Below are positions 3,983 through 14,398 of a DNA stretch of 64,000 nucleotides, in pieces. How positions within the stretch are numbered: the stretch's first letter is position 1; the number at the start of each line of letters is the position of its first letter. The DNA comes from Acidobacteriota bacterium (GTDB lineage: Bacteria; Acidobacteriota; Thermoanaerobaculia; Gp7-AA8; JAHWKK01): positions 1-64,000 of the forward strand of contig JAHWKK010000008.1 in the NCBI GenBank assembly GCA_019347945.1, given 5' to 3'. Made by a program: the position numbers and the translations under genes. The notes under the pieces were generated by a model. It had not been told where the DNA came from. It ran no database searches and saw only the letters and a program-made list of their open reading frames with translations.

Positions 3983-5830
3983 ATGGCGAAGATCATCGGA
4001 ATCGACCTCGGCACGACGAACTCGTGTGTGGCGACCATCAGCGTTACCGAGCCGCAGGTGATCGCGAACCGCGAGGGGAGCAGAACCACTCCGTCGGTCG
4101 TCGGCTTCATCGAAGACGGTGACCGGCTCGTGGGCCAGATCGCGAAGCGTCAGGCCATCACGAATCCGTTCAATACCGTCTTCGCGATCAAACGGCTGAT
4201 CGGCCGGAAGTTCGACTCCGACGAGACCAGGCACGCCATCGAGATGATGCCCTACCAGATCGTCAGCGCTCCCAACGGCGACGTCAAGGTGCGGATCAGG
4301 AACAGAGAGTACTCGGCCGAGGAAATCTCTTCGTTCGTTCTGAAGGAGATCAAGGATTCGGCGGAGGAGACCCTCGGTGAGGAGATCAGCGAGGCGATCA
4401 TCACCGTCCCCGCCTACTTCGACGACTCGCAGCGACAGGCCACTCGTGACGCCGGCCGCATCGCCGGTCTCGACGTCCTTCGAATCATCAACGAGCCGAC
4501 CGCCGCTGCGCTGGCCTACGGGCTGGAGAACCGCAGTGATCAGACCATCGCCGTTTACGACCTCGGAGGCGGCACCTTCGACATCTCGATTCTCCGGATC
4601 TCCGGCGGGCTCTTCGAGGTTCTTGCCACCTCGGGTGATACCTATCTCGGCGGCGAGGACTTCGACAGAGCAATCATCGACTGGCTCGTGGCCGGCTTCA
4701 AAGAGGAGACGGGAGTCGATCTGCGCGAAGATCGCATGGCACTTCAGCGCCTCAAGGAAGCTTCGGAGAAGGCGAAAGCCGAGCTCTCGTCGACGGAGGA
4801 GTCGAGGATCACCCTCCCGTTCATTTCCGCCGACGAGGGAGGTCCCAAGCATCTCAATCGGGTTCTCACACGGGAAACGCTCGAGGAGCTGGTCGAACCT
4901 CTCGTGCAGCGGACCGTCAAGCCGAGCGAGGACGCCCTCAAGCAGGCCGGCATCGATAAATCCGCGATCGACGAAGTGATTCTCGTCGGGGGTCAAACGC
5001 GGATGCCGCGCGTCATGCGACTCGTCGAGGAGGTATTCGGCCGCGAGCCGAACCGCTCGATCAACCCCGACGAGGTCGTCGCCATCGGAGCGGCCGTCCA
5101 GGGAGGCATTCTCGCCGGCGAAGTCACCGACATGGTGCTGCTCGACGTTACGCCGCTGTCGCTCGGCATCGAGACTCAGGGCGGGCTCTTCACGAGAATC
5201 ATCGAGAGAAACTCGACGATCCCCACGAAGAACTCACTCGTCTTCACGACCGTCAGCGACAACCAGAACAAGGTGCAGATCCACGTTCTTCAGGGCGAGC
5301 GTGAGTTCTCGAAGGAGAACAAGTCGCTCGGCAAGTTCGATCTGATCGGTGTCCCTCCGGCGCCGCGAGGAGTTCCGCAGATCGAAGTGACCTTCGCCAT
5401 CGACTCGAACGGCATGGTCAACGTCACCGCCAGAGACCAGGCCACCGGTCAGGAAACGGGTGTCCAGATCAATCCGGCCGGCGGACTCAGCGAGGACGAG
5501 ATCGAGAAAATCGTAGGCGAGGCGGAACAATACTCGCGCGATGATGCTTCTCGTCGTGAATTGAGGCAGTTGCAGAACAAACTCGAAGGAATGATCTACA
5601 CCAATGAGAAGGTCTTTCGCGAGTTCGGAAAGCTTCTCTCCAAGGAAGACCGGGAGAAGGTCGAGAAGGTCATCGCCGCGGCCAGGACGCGCGTCGCCAG
5701 CGAGTCGCGCCAGAAGATGAACGACGCGATGTTCGAACTGCAGAGTGCATCCCGAATCCTGACCGAGGTGATGCTCTACAACCCCTCGAAGGGCTTCACC
5801 GCTTCAGACACCAAAGAAGAAGAATCCTGA
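3983..5830 (+). CDS. dnaK: Molecular chaperone DnaK (Hsp70)
   Basis: 615 residues. The ATPase domain shows '[13 protein letters not shown]' (residues 5-17), '[13 protein letters not shown]' and '[13 protein letters not shown]'. The interdomain linker and start of the substrate domain are seen at '[17 protein letters not shown]', then the beta-sandwich '[19 protein letters not shown]' and the helical lid. The C-terminus is short (ASDTKEEES) and lacks the Gly/Gln-rich tail and EEVD-like end of many DnaKs, giving a slightly short protein. ATP-driven folding with GrpE and DnaJ encoded on either side; spacing to dnaJ is only 4 bp. Confidence 0.98.
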
Positions 5831-8304: not shown

Positions 8305-8516
8305 GTCAGATCAGCCCGCGCGAGCGGGCGACAGGTCTTAGCCCCCGGCTTCAGCCGGGGGACAGAAGTAGCGCGAAAAGGATGTCGAGCCCGCTTCGGC
8401 GGGTGACAGACAGTCGGCGAGCTTCCTGGGCGTCGCAAGCTCGCCGCCGCCACGATGGGGCACGAGCATCGAACCTGCAACCGGCAACCGGCAACTGACA
8501 ACCGGCAACCCGCTTC
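8305..8516. repeat. REP palindromes followed by CCGGCAAC short-period repeat
   Basis: A family B copy at about 8312-8328, family A at 8342-8361 and family B again at about 8389-8404 (with a GCGGGT variant). A degenerate CCGGCAAC-type tandem run follows at about 8471-8513, abutting the 3' end of the minus-strand Spy-like gene. The stretch 8149-8304 shows no gene or repeat that I can identify. Confidence 0.75.
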
Positions 8517-8969
8517 TCAGTGCGGTCGTCGAGAGCGGCGCCGATGCCGGGGATCTTCCCGATGCTCCATTCGCTCGTGAATCGCGGTCCTGATCCGGCG
8601 CCACTGTTCCGTCGTGAGTACCGTGCGGAAGTCCACCAGCAGGGCCAGTTCCCGCTCGAAGAGAGCGGCGCGGGCCTCGCTGACCTCGGCCGCTGCCTCT
8701 AGAATCGCGCTCCGATCGAGATGATCGCTGTCGAGCAGACCACGCAAAACGACGGTGGCTTTTTCGAGATCCGCCTTCCGGTCGATCAGCTCTGCGGCCG
8801 AGCGATGAAAAATCCCGTCCAGCTCCTCCTGCTGTTCGGCAGAGAGGCCGAGCTTCGCGGCGGTACGAGGGTTGGACCACCATTTTCCGGGCGGAAGCCC
8901 GAACGACTGCGCGTAAAGCGATCCCGTCAGAATCAGCAGTGTGAAGGCGAGTAGTGCGTGTCGTTTCAT
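8517..8969 (-). CDS. Spy/CpxP-like periplasmic LTxxQ protein
   Basis: 150 residues. A cleavable signal peptide (MKRHALLAFTLLILTGSLYAQ) precedes a helical protein with the pattern 'LGLSAEQQEELDGIF' and a terminal 'LTTEQWRRIRTAIHERM', the LTxxQ motif of the Spy/CpxP/heavy-metal-resistance (CnrR/ZraP-like) family. These periplasmic proteins act as ATP-independent chaperones or metal sensors. The C-terminus is strongly basic (HRRRSRRPH). It overlaps the upstream anti-sigma gene by 4 bp (8966-8969) and is the third gene of a sigma/anti-sigma operon, so it is probably a regulator or target of that stress response. Confidence 0.75.
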   Translation of the reverse strand: MKRHALLAFTLLILTGSLYAQSFGLPPGKWWSNPRTAAKLGLSAEQQEELDGIFHRSAAELIDRKADLEKATVVLRGLLDSDHLDRSAILEAAAEVSEARAALFERELALLVDFRTVLTTEQWRRIRTAIHERMEHREDPRHRRRSRRPH

Positions 8970-9475
8970 GAGCCGTTTTCACCGGCCTCGACTTGTTCGT
9001 CGGTGAGCCAGTCCTCCCAGTCGACGACCTGATGAAACGCCTGAATGTTCTCCGAGCCCCAGGGGTCGTACAGCTGCAGATCCTCTTCGAAGAGGTTCGC
9101 TTCGGCGGGCGGTTTCGTCGTCGCCGTACCGCTCGCATCGATCGTGTCGGCGGGGCGGAGAAGAAGTGCTCCAGTGGCGAGGCTCATGACGAGAACGAGC
9201 GCGATCGCAAAACCGCGAACAAACGCCGAACGGGTACCCGGTCGCGAGCCGGAGAGCAGTCGTGCGTTGATCTCGGTGCGCTGCCGTTCCCAGAATGCGT
9301 CCGGTTTCGAGGCTGCGCGGGCAGACACGCTCTCCGCGTCGCCGGCCGCGCTCAGACGAAGGGCGGCAAAGCGAGCGGAGCACTCTTCGCACGACTCGAG
9401 ATGCTCGTCGTAAGTCGCTTCGTCGAGCCAGAAGGCTTCCATCAGATCGACGTCGTTCGGATGTGACTCGTTCAC
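8966..9475 (-). CDS. Zinc-finger anti-sigma factor (ZAS-like), membrane bound
   Basis: 169 residues. The N-terminal anti-sigma domain shows the zinc signature H25-x3-C29-x2-C32 ('HLESCEEC'). One transmembrane helix follows (about 86-107, FVRGFAIALVLVMSLATGALLL) and then a short acidic extracytoplasmic tail. Such proteins hold an ECF sigma factor at the membrane until a signal releases it. The gene overlaps the sigma gene by 4 bp (9472-9475), with the sigma gene first. The cognate pair is inferred from this arrangement. Confidence 0.85.
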   Translation of the reverse strand: MNESHPNDVDLMEAFWLDEATYDEHLESCEECSARFAALRLSAAGDAESVSARAASKPDAFWERQRTEINARLLSGSRPGTRSAFVRGFAIALVLVMSLATGALLLRPADTIDASGTATTKPPAEANLFEEDLQLYDPWGSENIQAFHQVVDWEDWLTDEQVEAGENGS

Positions 9476-10092
9476 GAGCGGGAGCCCTTTCGGTATGCGT
9501 CGAGTATCTCTCGAATCTTTCTGGTGGCGCGGTGAAGATGGACTCGCGTCGTCGAAGGCTCGATGCCGAGAATCGTGGCGATCTCGTCGAGGCGGCGCTG
9601 TTCGAAGTGGCGGAGAGCGAAGATCGTCCGCTGCTTCGGGGGAAGCGACACGAGAGCTTCCTCGACGAGTCTCGAAAGCTCGAGCGACAGAAGCTGGCGC
9701 TCAGCATCGGGACGCTCGTCGCGCAGCGCATCGAGCCGTGAAGTGTTGCCGTCCGGGTGTGACGATTTCGAGGCGAAGCGGCGCTGCCGGCGCAGTTCGT
9801 CTCGGGCCTTGTTGACCGCGATCCGCGTCAGCCAGGTTTCGAGCGAGGAGCGTCCTTCGAACCTGCTGATCTTCCGCCATGCCTGCACGAAGGTTTCCTG
9901 GGTGATCGTGTCGGCGTCGGTCTCGTTCCGCATGATCGCGAGCGCGGTCCGGTAAATGGCCTTCTGGTAGTCGGTGACGATCCTGTTGAACGCATCGGAA
10001 TCGCCCCGGGCGACGCGCCGGATCAGCTCGCGTTCCTCGTTGCGCTCCTGTTCTGGCGCAGCTGTGGTCATGACGGCAGCATTCACGTCCAT
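9472..10092 (-). CDS. ECF RNA polymerase sigma factor
   Basis: 206 residues. Sigma region 2 is seen at 'DAFNRIVTDYQKAIYRTAL' through 'ADTITQETFVQAWRKISRF', followed by 'SLETWLTRIAVNKARDELR'. Region 4 is seen at 'LPPKQRTIFALRHFEQRRL' and the helix-turn-helix 'EIATILGIEPSTTRVHLHR'. Either M1 (10092) or M8 (10071) may be the start. It is the first gene of sigma/anti-sigma/Spy-like, the layout of an envelope-stress regulon that usually autoregulates. I could not identify its own promoter motif. Confidence 0.93.
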   Translation of the reverse strand: MDVNAAVMTTAAPEQERNEERELIRRVARGDSDAFNRIVTDYQKAIYRTALAIMRNETDADTITQETFVQAWRKISRFEGRSSLETWLTRIAVNKARDELRRQRRFASKSSHPDGNTSRLDALRDERPDAERQLLSLELSRLVEEALVSLPPKQRTIFALRHFEQRRLDEIATILGIEPSTTRVHLHRATRKIREILDAYRKGSRS

Positions 10093-10116: not shown

Positions 10117-13100
10117 TTACACGCCCTCGATCCAGAGCTCGTGATAGCGCACCGGAGGCGGAGCCATGTGGAGCCGGAGCCCTCGTACCTTGGGGCGGTG
10201 GAGCACGAAGAGCCGGTCGTGGAAAAGATAAGTGACGGGCGCTTCGACGACCGCTTTCCGATTCAGCAGCGCGTAGATCTGAGCGCGCCGCTCGGTGTCG
10301 AGCGTACGGCGCGCCTCCTCGATCGCTTCATCCATCCTCTCCGACTGATAGTTCAACCCCGGAATCGCCTTCGCGCTCGAGTGGAAGAACATGAAGAAGA
10401 AGTTGTCCGAGTCGGGGAAATCGGCGTACCAGTTCGCCACAAAGATCGTGTTGTGCCCGATGCCGGTGTGCTTGTCTCGCGCTTCTTCCCGGGATGTCAT
10501 CTTTTTGTTGACGCGGATGCCGATGTCCCCGAGATCTTCGATGATCAGGTCGAGGAGGCCGGAATTGTTGAACTCGTCCGTGTCGAATGCCCAGTAATCG
10601 ATCTCGAAGCCGTCGCCGTGGCCCGCCTTGCGCAGCAGCTCGCGCGCCCGCTCCACGTCGTAGCGCAGCTCTTCGATGTCGTCTTCGTAGCCGAGCAGCC
10701 CCGGCGGAAGGAGCGACTTCGCGACGACGCCGAGTCCGGAGAAGATGCGCTCGTTGAGACGATGCTTGTTAATCGCGTGCGCGACTGCCTGCCGGACCTC
10801 CACGCGGTTGAACGGCGGGCTGGCGTTGTCGTAGGCGAGGTACGAGGTGTGAAGCGTCGTCGCGGCCAGCAGGTAGGGGGCGAACTCGGGATCGTCACGA
10901 ATCTCCTTGACGATCTTCGCGGGGATGCCATGGGCGATGTCGAGCTCCCCCTTCATGAACGCATCGACGAGCTCCTGCGAGCTGCTGAGGTCGAGCCGGA
11001 TGAGCACTTCCTCCAGGTAGGGGATCTGCTTCTTCCAGTACTGGTCGAACCTCGAGAGACGGATGAACTCGCCCTCGACCGACTCGGCAACCGAGAACGG
11101 CCCGGCCCCGATCGGATTGAGCCGCACCTTCTCTTCGTCCAGATCGTCGATCGGAAGCGCGGCCGTCTCCGGCATCGACATCAGGTGAATGAAGAACGCG
11201 AGCGGCTCGGTGAGGTGAATCTCCAGCAGATAGGTGTCGAGTACCCGGATTCCGTGCGCGTCGTTCGACTTCCCGCTCATCACTTCGTCGGCTCCCTGAA
11301 TGGTCGCGGTGATCCACGCTCCGAGCGATTCACTCCGGGGATTCATCAGACGGAGCAGCGACTTCCGGAAATCTTCCGCTGTCACGGTACGGCCGTTGTG
11401 GAACCGCGCATCCTTCCGGAGCTGGAAACGATAGACGCGTCCCTGCTCCAGGATGTCCCAGCTTTCGGCGATGCCCGGAACGATCTCCGCCCCCTCGCCG
11501 AACATCACGAGCGTCTCGTGAATCGCCTTCTGCGGGTAGTTCAGCGCCATGAACTGGCAGCGGATCGGATCGAGGGTGAGGCGGTGCGGGAGAATCGAGG
11601 CCGTCGTGATTTTTCCGCCCGGCTCCGGCTCCGGCAGGATGAAGGCGCCCAGCTCGCCGCCGAGCAGATTCGCCTCGTGCCGAAGCGTGTTCGCGAGCCG
11701 GAAGAGGTCGCCGACCGCGAAGCTGTTCTCCCGGGCTCCCTCCTCAACGAAGCTCATCCCGTCGACGATCCGGGCGCTCTCGGTCGTCAGCGTCGTCGTC
11801 GCATCCCTCACGGACGACACCGCCGACATGATGCTCTCCATTGCTTCACCGATGGCCCGGCTTCCGCTCTCCTGCTCCACCAGCGCGCGCTGCAGATGCT
11901 TCATGTGATCGAGCACCACCGACGCCTGCTCGCCGACCTTCTGTGAAGTGTGGGCCTGCTGCTGGGTAGCGACGGCCGTCTGCTGGACCATCTTGGTGAC
12001 TTCCTCGATCGCTTCGGTCGTCGCCTGGCTTCCTCGTATCTGCTCTTCCGTCGCCTTCGCAATCGCCTGGATCGATGACGTCGATTCGGTCGTGAGCTCC
12101 TGAATCCTGGCCAGAACGCGCTCCGCCTGCTCGGTGAGCTTGACCCCACGGCTCACCCGATCGGAGCTTTGGGTCATCTGAGCCACCGCGCGCGTCACTC
12201 CCCGCTGCACGTTGTGAATGAGGTTTCGAATCTCGTCGGTCGAGCGGGAGGTCCTCTCCGAGAGGTCCCGGATCTCGTCCGCGACCACGGCGAATCCGCG
12301 TCCCTGATCGCCGGCCTGCGCAGCGATGATCGCAGCGTTGAGCGCGAGCAGATTCGTCTGGCGCGCGATCTCGTCGATCACCCGGACGATCTCGCCGATC
12401 TCCTCCGAGCGCGACCCGAGGTCTTCCAGCGCATCCTTCGCCTCGGTGACCGTTTTCTCAATCGCGCGCATCCCCTGGACCGTACCGTCTACCGCGTTGC
12501 TTCCTTCGCGCGCCGCCTTCATGACGCTCTCGGCGAGATCGGAGGACTGGCGAGCGGAGGTGGCGATCGATTCGGTCGTCGCGTTCATCTCGACCATGGA
12601 GCTCGCTGTCTGCGTGGCGAAAGAGGAGAACGTCTCGGTGTTGGTTGCCACGTTATCGATCGAAACCGCCATTTCATCGATCGCAGACGCCGTTTCGGAG
12701 ACGAAATCAGCCAACTTATCGGAGATCCGGCGGACCTCCTCAATGCTTGCCGACATCTCGAGCACCGAGGTCGAGGTTTCCTCCGCGGACTCCGCGAGGT
12801 TCTCCATGCTGTGCTGGACCGAGTTGATCGACTGGTCGATCTCGTTGACCGATTGTGCGGTCTCGCCGGTCGATTGGGTCTGAGCCTCGACGTTGCGCGA
12901 GAGGTATCGCGCCCGGTCGACGACCTGGGCGCTCACCCCCTGGACGTCGTCCGAGAGTCGGGTGAAGCGGTTGATCGTCCGTTCGAGCCGGAGGACGAGC
13001 GCGCGGATGGCCGCGGAGGTCTCGGTCGAGTCGGTTGCCTGGGCGATCTCGTCGCCGGTGATGTCGAGACGGCCGCGCGCGAGCTTCCCGAGAAGGGGCG

Positions 13101-13440
13101 TCAGTTTTTCTTTTCGTCCGAAACTGCGACGGATTGTCTCCCCGGGTGCCCCCTCGAGATCGATGTCGAGATTGACGTCGGTGGTCAGAATCAGCTCGTC
13201 GACGGCGGCCGATCGTCTGACGCTCTCGATAATCGAGATGACGATGGCGGAGCCGAACGAGGCGAGCGCCGCACAGCCAATCAGCAGGAGTCGGACGTCA
13301 CGAGGGAGGGGGATGAAAAGGGAGAAGAGGGCGAAAAAGATCACCGAGCAGGCTGCGAGAATCCAGGCCAGCCGGTTTGTCCGTTCCCATTCCATCGTAC
13401 CCGTTCCCCCTGACGCAGTATGAGCATCGGGTTCCTTCAA
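10117..13440 (-). CDS. Chemoreceptor (MCP) fused to an ABC-type peptide-binding (SBP_bac_5) domain
   Basis: 1107 residues in two halves. Residues 25-45 and 50-71 are two transmembrane helices separated by only a few residues, so there is essentially no periplasmic sensor. Residues 150-600 are a long methyl-accepting coiled coil with the hairpin tip '[20 protein letters not shown]' and '[19 protein letters not shown]' (about 355-398). From about residue 610 to the end is a family-5 solute-binding fold ('[20 protein letters not shown]', '[15 protein letters not shown]', '[14 protein letters not shown]'). No helix lies between the halves, so the binding domain should be on the same, cytoplasmic, side as the signalling tip. 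Start at 13440 or at the internal ATG at 13395. Single gene, divergent from the prenyl synthase. Confidence 0.88.
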
Positions 13441-13456: not shown

Positions 13457-14398
13457 GTGCGATGCTACCATAACGAACTCGTGGTCCGAGTTTCGAAAAG
13501 CGACGCAGGCGAGGTGGGGCTGGAGGACTATCTGATCAGCCGTAAGTCGCTGATCGACGGGCGACTCGAAGCCATTCTGGAGGGTGCGACGATTCCCTCC
13601 GTGATGAAGGAACCGATCGAGACGGCGCTTCGCTCCCCCGGAAAGCGAATTCGTGGACTGCTGACGATCGCGGCTGCGGAGGCGTCCCGAGCCGCACGAA
13701 CCGATCCGATCGTCACGGCGGCGGCAGCCGTCGAGATGATCCACACCTGCTCACTGATACTCGACGATCTTCCCGCGATGGACGATGCGGAGCTTCGCCG
13801 GGGCAACCCCGCATTCCATCGCAGCTTCGGCGAGGACCGGGCGATTCTGACGGCGGTGGCGCTTCTCAATCATGCCTATGCGCTGGTCGCCGAGGCGCAT
13901 GCCGCGGCTTCGCCTCGCCGGTATCCGGCGACGGAGTTGATCGAGCGGATCTCGAGCGCGGTCGGGTGGGACGGCTCGATCGGTGGAGAAGCGGTCGACC
14001 TCCACAGCAGCAGCCGTCCTCTCGACTTCGAGACCCTCGAGTACATCCACTCTCGAAAGACCGGCGCGCTCTTCGTCGCATCCGCCGCGATCGGGTGCAT
14101 GCTGGCGAACGGCTCCCGCCCATCGCTCGCCGCAGTCGAGAGCTATGCAAGGAACCTCGGGCTCGCCTTCCAGATCACCGACGACATCCTCGACGTCACC
14201 AGCACCGTGGACGAGCTCGGAAAGGACGTCGGCCAGGATGCCGAGCGGCTGACGTTCGTCAGGCTCGCTGGAATCGACGGCGCGAGGCAGCTGGCCGGCG
14301 AGCTGATCGAGACGGCGATCGAGGCGGTCACTCCGTTCGGCGCAGCGGGCAAGCGTCTGATTCAGCTCGCCTCGATGGTGCGGGATCGGTCGAGCTGA
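13457..14398 (+). CDS. Polyprenyl (farnesyl/geranylgeranyl-type) diphosphate synthase
   Basis: 313 residues from a GTG at 13457. A second GTG at 13481 is equally possible and lies 9 nt after a TACCAT box. Trans-prenyltransferase motifs are all present: '[11 protein letters not shown]' (61-70), the first Asp-rich motif D103-D-L-P-A-M-D-D110 with 'RRGNPAFH' after it, 'GGEAVDL', '[10 protein letters not shown]' and the second Asp-rich motif 'QITDDILD'. The enzyme condenses IPP with an allylic diphosphate. The DDxxxxD form is typical of bacterial FPP/GGPP synthases (IspA-like). Residues before the first motif do not settle the chain length. No isoprenoid gene is adjacent. Confidence 0.9.

Follow-up and report, generated by a model that had tools for sequence, protein, structure and literature searches.

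A chemoreceptor with a C-terminal, probably cytoplasmic, family-5 solute-binding domain in Acidobacteriota

The window, by which we mean the whole 64,000-nucleotide stretch analysed here, is the start of contig JAHWKK010000008.1 from an Acidobacteriota bacterium of the class Thermoanaerobaculia. On its minus strand, positions 10117-13440 form an open reading frame of 1107 codons that begins with TTG, contains no internal stop and joins a chemoreceptor (MCP) coil to a family-5 solute-binding domain (SBP_bac_5, hereafter the SBP domain). A start at the ATG at position 13395 is more likely, giving a protein of 1092 residues; we prefer it because it is where homologs start and has a GGGGG stretch about 12 nt ahead of it. 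Residues of this MCP-SBP_bac_5 fusion are numbered from that ATG, and adding 15 gives the numbering of an earlier note on the same DNA. The features of the locus are listed below.

10117-13395, minus strand: MCP-SBP_bac_5 fusion gene, 1092 residues from the likely ATG; the longer alternative starts at the TTG at 13440
13306-13362, minus strand: transmembrane helix 1, core residues 12-30 (hydropathy; AlphaFold helix 2-26)
13228-13284, minus strand: transmembrane helix 2, core residues 38-56 (hydropathy; AlphaFold helix 35-71)
13066-13074, minus strand: conserved G-D-L turn, residues 108-110, GRL in this protein, at the coil base nearest the membrane (conservation)
11647-13026, minus strand: chemoreceptor coiled-coil hairpin, residues 124-583 (AlphaFold helices 124-221, 236-360, 362-487 and 498-583)
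11989-12543, minus strand: PF00015 MCPsignal domain, residues 285-469 (Pfam)
12307-12339, minus strand: hairpin tip, residues 353-363, with I and Q at the Tsr trimer-contact E/R positions
11614-11643, minus strand: short conserved linker from coil to SBP domain, residues 585-594 (conservation)
10120-11613, minus strand: complete family-5 solute-binding domain, residues 595-1092 (PF00496 at 10372-11487; structure matches)
10399-10431, minus strand: predicted ligand-site motif, residues 989-999 (conservation; 1dpp alignment)

Pfam assigns residues 285-469 to MCPsignal with E = 1.4e-46 (158.9 bits against a cut-off of 34.6) and residues 637-1008 to SBP_bac_5 with E = 6e-78 (263 bits), the latter match covering profile positions 1-365 of 368. 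HAMP, periplasmic sensor and HTH domains were all absent from the Pfam scan of the protein. DppA/OppA-like NCBIfam models match the C-terminal half and MCP models the middle, all far under their equivalog cut-offs. The earlier note had read the locus as one open reading frame with an MCP coil followed by a family-5 solute-binding domain, and the Pfam domains, the intact frame and the homologs confirm this. We ruled out an assembly chimera or frameshift artefact as the source of the fusion, because both halves are present in 43 of 43 aligned homologs and their divergence is correlated (Pearson r = 0.95, with none of 2000 permutations as high). The search for other MCP-SBP_bac_5 fusions that the earlier note had proposed gave these 43 aligned proteins with both domains, similar in length and with the same linker.

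Sampling covered Acidobacteriota genomes and a plasmid collection. Within the order, every one of the 18 other genomes sampled matches the fusion. It is intact in one frame in 13 of them, is interrupted in G003, G007, G011, G015 and G018 by contig ends or a change of frame, and is present in two copies in G017. In the G011 homolog (L042) the reading frame shifts where the coil ends, near 4700-4730; the split is natural or results from a sequencing error. On a wider scale, the fusion was detected in 29 of 149 genomes of the class Thermoanaerobaculia and in 31 of 396 genomes of an even sample of the phylum, where the matches span both halves. In a scan of named genomes, the relatives fell in Acidobacteriota; most carry the label Thermoanaerobaculia or Acidobacteria, and all are metagenome-assembled. 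Among the best 5000 records from the plasmid collection, none matched over more than 80% of the query. The fusion is old and conserved across Acidobacteriota.

Three further matches were rejected on inspection: a Massilia match (L070) is a stand-alone secreted SBP, a Rhizobium plasmid match (H1) has its MCP and SBP in separate genes, and a Leptolinea plasmid match (H17) is an unrelated SBP fusion. This last protein, encoded at L166:1928-5422 on the Leptolinea plasmid AP024711.1 (Chloroflexota), combines Peptidase_MA_2 and a C-terminal SBP_bac_5 domain with what looks like a signal peptide and with one membrane helix.

We scanned hydropathy with a 19-residue window at a level of 1.6. The fusion has hydrophobic helices only at residues 12-30 and 38-56, joined by a loop of about 7 residues, and nothing elsewhere in the protein reaches 1.6. 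The protein thus has neither a third membrane helix nor a signal peptide ahead of the SBP domain. In the 37 aligned homologs that have the hairpin, the loop is no longer than about 11 residues, too short to hold a sensor outside the membrane; after the second helix the net charge is positive in most. These results bear out the earlier note, which had described an N-terminal hairpin with no periplasmic sensor, and neither a membrane helix nor a separate signal peptide between the coil and the SBP domain; a third transmembrane helix between the halves, one of the points on which that note had staked its topology, was searched for by hydropathy and is not present. The hairpin is itself poorly conserved. 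Six homologs from three other families (L112, L113, L114, L115, L117 and L118) have no hydrophobic segment back to the preceding in-frame stop, so in these the receptor, including its SBP domain, must be cytoplasmic. The cytoplasmic location that the earlier note had assigned to the SBP domain of the fusion is well supported, the strongest evidence being the membrane-free homologs and the presence of related SBP domains on soluble kinase proteins.

The kinase proteins were found in two members of the order. L160:1916-7642 (G003) and L161:224-5809 (G002) encode a Ser/Thr kinase, an AAA ATPase and two SBP_bac_5 domains in soluble proteins of about 1860-1910 residues with no clear membrane helix. 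Kinase-SBP fusions are already known for another SBP family in Streptomyces (PMC1262709). A search of the phylum with one of the kinase-linked SBP domains ranked mostly long open frames first, then the MCP fusions and then stand-alone SBPs; many of the long frames span 1.8-2.1 thousand residues, and two were domain-scanned. Long open frames that resemble the kinase/AAA/SBP proteins are widespread in Acidobacteriota. In a phylogenetic tree, the MCP- and kinase-linked SBP domains stand apart from SBPs that these genomes secrete (SH-aLRT 99). In a tree with more periplasmic outgroups, a single clade of MCP- and kinase-linked domains was not rejected (p = 0.5), with moderate support and one long Leptolinea branch of unsure position; there the nearest outgroup consists of periplasmic peptide SBPs. 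We suggest tentatively that one peptide-binding lineage may have entered the cytoplasm early in Acidobacteriota and become an exchangeable internal sensor for MCPs, both membrane-tethered and soluble, and for soluble Ser/Thr-kinase/AAA proteins that carry SBP domains in pairs.

The structure closest in sequence to the SBP domain is 8upi, a periplasmic peptide-binding protein from Mesorhizobium (380 bits, E = 2e-112), and DppA comes next (E = 6e-83). Foldseek agrees in matching peptide-binding proteins, with TM-scores of up to 0.91 by target length, and the two-lobe SBP fold is complete in the predicted model. W989, D992, D997 and F999, which make up the motif WxxD....D.F, are invariant in 43 of 43 homologs. 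In DppA, Asp408 and Arg355 bind the two ends of the dipeptide, Asp408 at the amino end and Arg355 at the carboxylate. D992 aligns with Asp408 in the 1dpp alignment; the counterpart of Arg355 is E941 or a neighbour, and the family has no conserved arginine there. PDB entry 8z1z has in its title the mutants R383D and D436R, in precursor numbering, which correspond to Arg355 and Asp408. Because the Arg355 position is not arginine here and varies within the family, specificity must differ from that of DppA. These alignments suggest that the domain has kept a cleft able to take an amino-bearing ligand and that its specificity has changed.

An AlphaFold monomer model of the fusion, given the 43 aligned family members, has a mean pLDDT of 78 and a pTM of 0.61. 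Helices at 2-26 and 35-71 are followed by a long antiparallel coil, which turns at about residue 361 and runs up to 583, and by the SBP fold from 595. The SBP fold is predicted with a pLDDT of about 93, and confidence in the coil is modest (pLDDT 35-80); being a monomer model, it bears on the single chain and not on the dimer. The SBP domain is placed at the membrane-proximal end of the coil. At the tip, L350, L352, N353, I356 and F368 are invariant. The trimer-contact residues at the tip of E. coli Tsr are E385 and R388; in the fusion family these positions are I at 357 (72%) and Q at 360 (95%), and coupling to CheA may therefore be unusual. A scan for methylation sites found no strict consensus and one loose match, at residue 201.

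The join between coil and sensor is among the best preserved parts of the protein. Both the linker, F-x-L-P-x-P-x-x-G-G at 585-594 (F585 in 42 of 43 homologs, P588 in 40 of 43, G593 and G594 in 43 of 43), and the G-D-L turn at 108-110 (G108 in 43 of 43, L110 in 41 of 43) rank among the most conserved positions of the family. The model has isolated strand residues at 109 and 586, which perhaps form a bridge between turn and linker at the base of the coil. As a suggestion only, such a modelled bridge would link the SBP domain stiffly to both coil arms.

The genome, which is 99.65% complete, encodes two MCPs, one CheA, two CheW, two CheR matches, CheB and CheY-like proteins. In the neighbourhoods examined, neither che genes nor genes for a peptide transporter, ABC permease or ATPase adjoin the fusion. 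The earlier note had raised the question of nearby che genes, and for this fusion the answer is negative, its che genes lying elsewhere in the genome. A cluster with DUF4388, CheY, CheA, AAA and CheW (L080) sits at the end of contig C33 of this genome (G000), and a CheR/CheB/GAF/CheY/HEAT cluster (L128) at the start of contig C28; because both are at contig ends, they may be a single chemosensory locus split by assembly. FliG was absent from 19 of 19 genomes in a search that included positive controls, PilB/PilT-type ATPases are present in all 19, and in two relatives the second MCP lies beside CheW and a few kb from T2SSE and T2SSF genes (pilB/pilT/pilC-like). For these reasons a pilus-linked or otherwise non-flagellar output is likely, if unproven. 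In Pseudomonas, responses to peptides are mediated by PilJ, a receptor of the pilus system (PMC10896506).

Next to the fusion on its downstream side, window positions 8517-10092 (minus strand) hold genes for an ECF sigma factor, a putative anti-sigma factor and a Metal_resist protein (PF13801), with a gap of 28 bp between the fusion and the sigma-factor gene. Eleven relatives likewise have a sigma-factor homolog on the downstream side, at varying spacing, and in many members of the order the fusion is located upstream of an ECF sigma, anti-sigma and Metal_resist set. On the other side, a polyprenyl synthetase gene (13457-14398, plus strand) is divergent from the fusion and is kept in much of the class, not beyond it. 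We set operon logic aside as a guide to function, synteny with the polyprenyl synthetase and the sigma-factor set being lost elsewhere in the phylum. A repeated intergenic sequence around window positions 8340, 14450, 15330 and 15720 resembles a dispersed short repeat and appears in spurious open reading frames as runs like RLPVAGCRLPV or PATGNRPPATGNR.

We consider it probable that the fusion is an inward-facing chemoreceptor whose sensor, the C-terminal SBP_bac_5 domain, serves for internal peptide-like ligands; the earlier note was probably right to propose sensing of an intracellular ligand, which is the best inference that the sequence offers. We infer ligand binding, ligand identity, coupling and output along the following lines. 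The two-helix hairpin, which is absent from some relatives, would only tether the receptor to the inner membrane, and the SBP domain would act as a cytoplasmic sensor at the base of the signalling coil, on its membrane-proximal side. It would close on a peptide-like ligand from inside the cell; this ligand most likely has a free amino group, as do di- or oligopeptides that have been imported and peptides of the cell wall. The short linker and the GDL turn would transmit the closure to the two arms of the coil, and the signal would then reach CheW and CheA at the far tip. The output would probably be pilus behaviour or another non-flagellar response.

SBPs normally dock to transporters. Docking of this kind being normal for the family, the SBP domain could instead be a cytoplasmic module that binds no free ligand but docks to another cytoplasmic protein or to a transporter from the inside and tells the receptor what state its partner is in, or it could form a lid on the coil. 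AlphaFold places it at the membrane-proximal end of the coil, near where the nucleotide-binding domains of a transporter would be, and the DppA carboxylate-site arginine is not conserved. However, the invariant WxxD....D.F motif and the complete two-lobe fold are better explained by a ligand cleft that has been kept, and the membrane-free members are not anchored at the membrane at all. We regard docking or a lid as unlikely; the C-terminal lid, which the earlier note had offered as its alternative, is the less likely reading because the domain keeps its complete fold and the invariant ligand-site aspartate. Nor do we give much credence to the idea that the SBP domain is a structural remnant, with a receptor that is constitutive or signals through the hairpin, for example in response to membrane state. 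A receptor with nothing but a hairpin might in principle respond to the membrane, but the SBP half is conserved like the MCP half (mean pairwise identity 0.38 each) and has at least 20 invariant residues, whereas the hairpin is poorly conserved and missing in six members; this makes a vestigial domain very improbable. A periplasmic SBP domain that reaches external peptides through an unpredicted topology, as in a normal SBP-linked receptor, would agree with the description of SBPs as extracytosolic (PMC9602780) and with the periplasmic outgroup in the tree, but it is largely refuted and scarcely credible given two helices that are both N-terminal, six homologs with none, an MCP coil that must be cytoplasmic to meet CheA, and related SBP domains on soluble kinases.

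The inward-facing receptor that we favour resembles cytoplasmic or C-terminally sensing MCPs in its MCP hairpin with a conserved tip, in the CheA, CheW, CheR and CheB of its genome, and in sensing from inside the cell through a domain added C-terminal to the coil. Helicobacter TlpD is an example of such a receptor. The fusion differs from these MCPs in adding a 500-residue SBP_bac_5 domain and not a small zinc-binding or PAS-type domain, in lacking HAMP, in the change from E/R to I/Q at the tip and, in most members, in its bare membrane hairpin. The nearest precedent is found in SgrR and DsvR, HTH transcription factors with a C-terminal SBP_bac_5 domain (PMC13060122). These are likewise cytoplasmic regulatory proteins, but their output is DNA binding in place of an MCP coil, and the NCBIfam SgrR model matches the fusion weakly (35 bits against a cut-off of 476). 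DppA, OppA and 8upi share the fold, supply the best sequence match and have the aspartate that is kept in the fusion at the Asp408-aligned position; unlike them, the fusion is cytoplasmic, lacks a signal peptide, is joined to a receptor, has no conserved Arg355 and has no permease genes alongside. BvgS Venus-flytrap kinases also have an SBP fold covalently joined to a signalling protein (PMC5829827), but there the fold is periplasmic, whereas in the fusion it is C-terminal and cytoplasmic. In the excerpt of an archaeal receptor survey available to us (PMC9680633), SBP_bac is among the sensor domains, as an extracytoplasmic sensor covalently joined to an MCP, and C-terminal cytoplasmic sensors are noted; that excerpt does not mention an MCPsignal-SBP_bac_5 fusion. 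Our literature search found no paper naming MCPsignal together with SBP_bac_5.

By domain, then, the fusion is an MCP, and its SBP_bac_5 domain lies outside the location of ordinary SBPs: hydropathy and the comparison of homologs reveal neither the signal peptide nor the extracytoplasmic position usual for SBP_bac_5 proteins. A survey describes SBPs as extracytosolic and predicts that SBP_bac_5 proteins bind almost exclusively peptides (PMC9602780). A chemoreceptor family across Acidobacteriota with an internal SBP domain, some of whose members have no membrane anchor at all, is a clear exception to the extracytosolic rule. It makes testable the question of whether the closing of an SBP domain at the C-terminal end of an MCP coil can drive that coil. 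It also offers a tractable way to study how metabolites are sensed internally in bacteria that are mostly uncultured and, in this order, lack the flagellar switch gene fliG; with only two MCPs encoded in a genome that is 99.65% complete, the fusion should play a role big enough to be detected. Its conservation in the phylum suggests that Acidobacteriota monitor peptide-like compounds inside the cell with the fusion. If the tentative history of a shared cytoplasmic SBP lineage is true, these cells would judge their internal peptide pool, not the concentration outside, in steering pilus-based or other non-flagellar responses.
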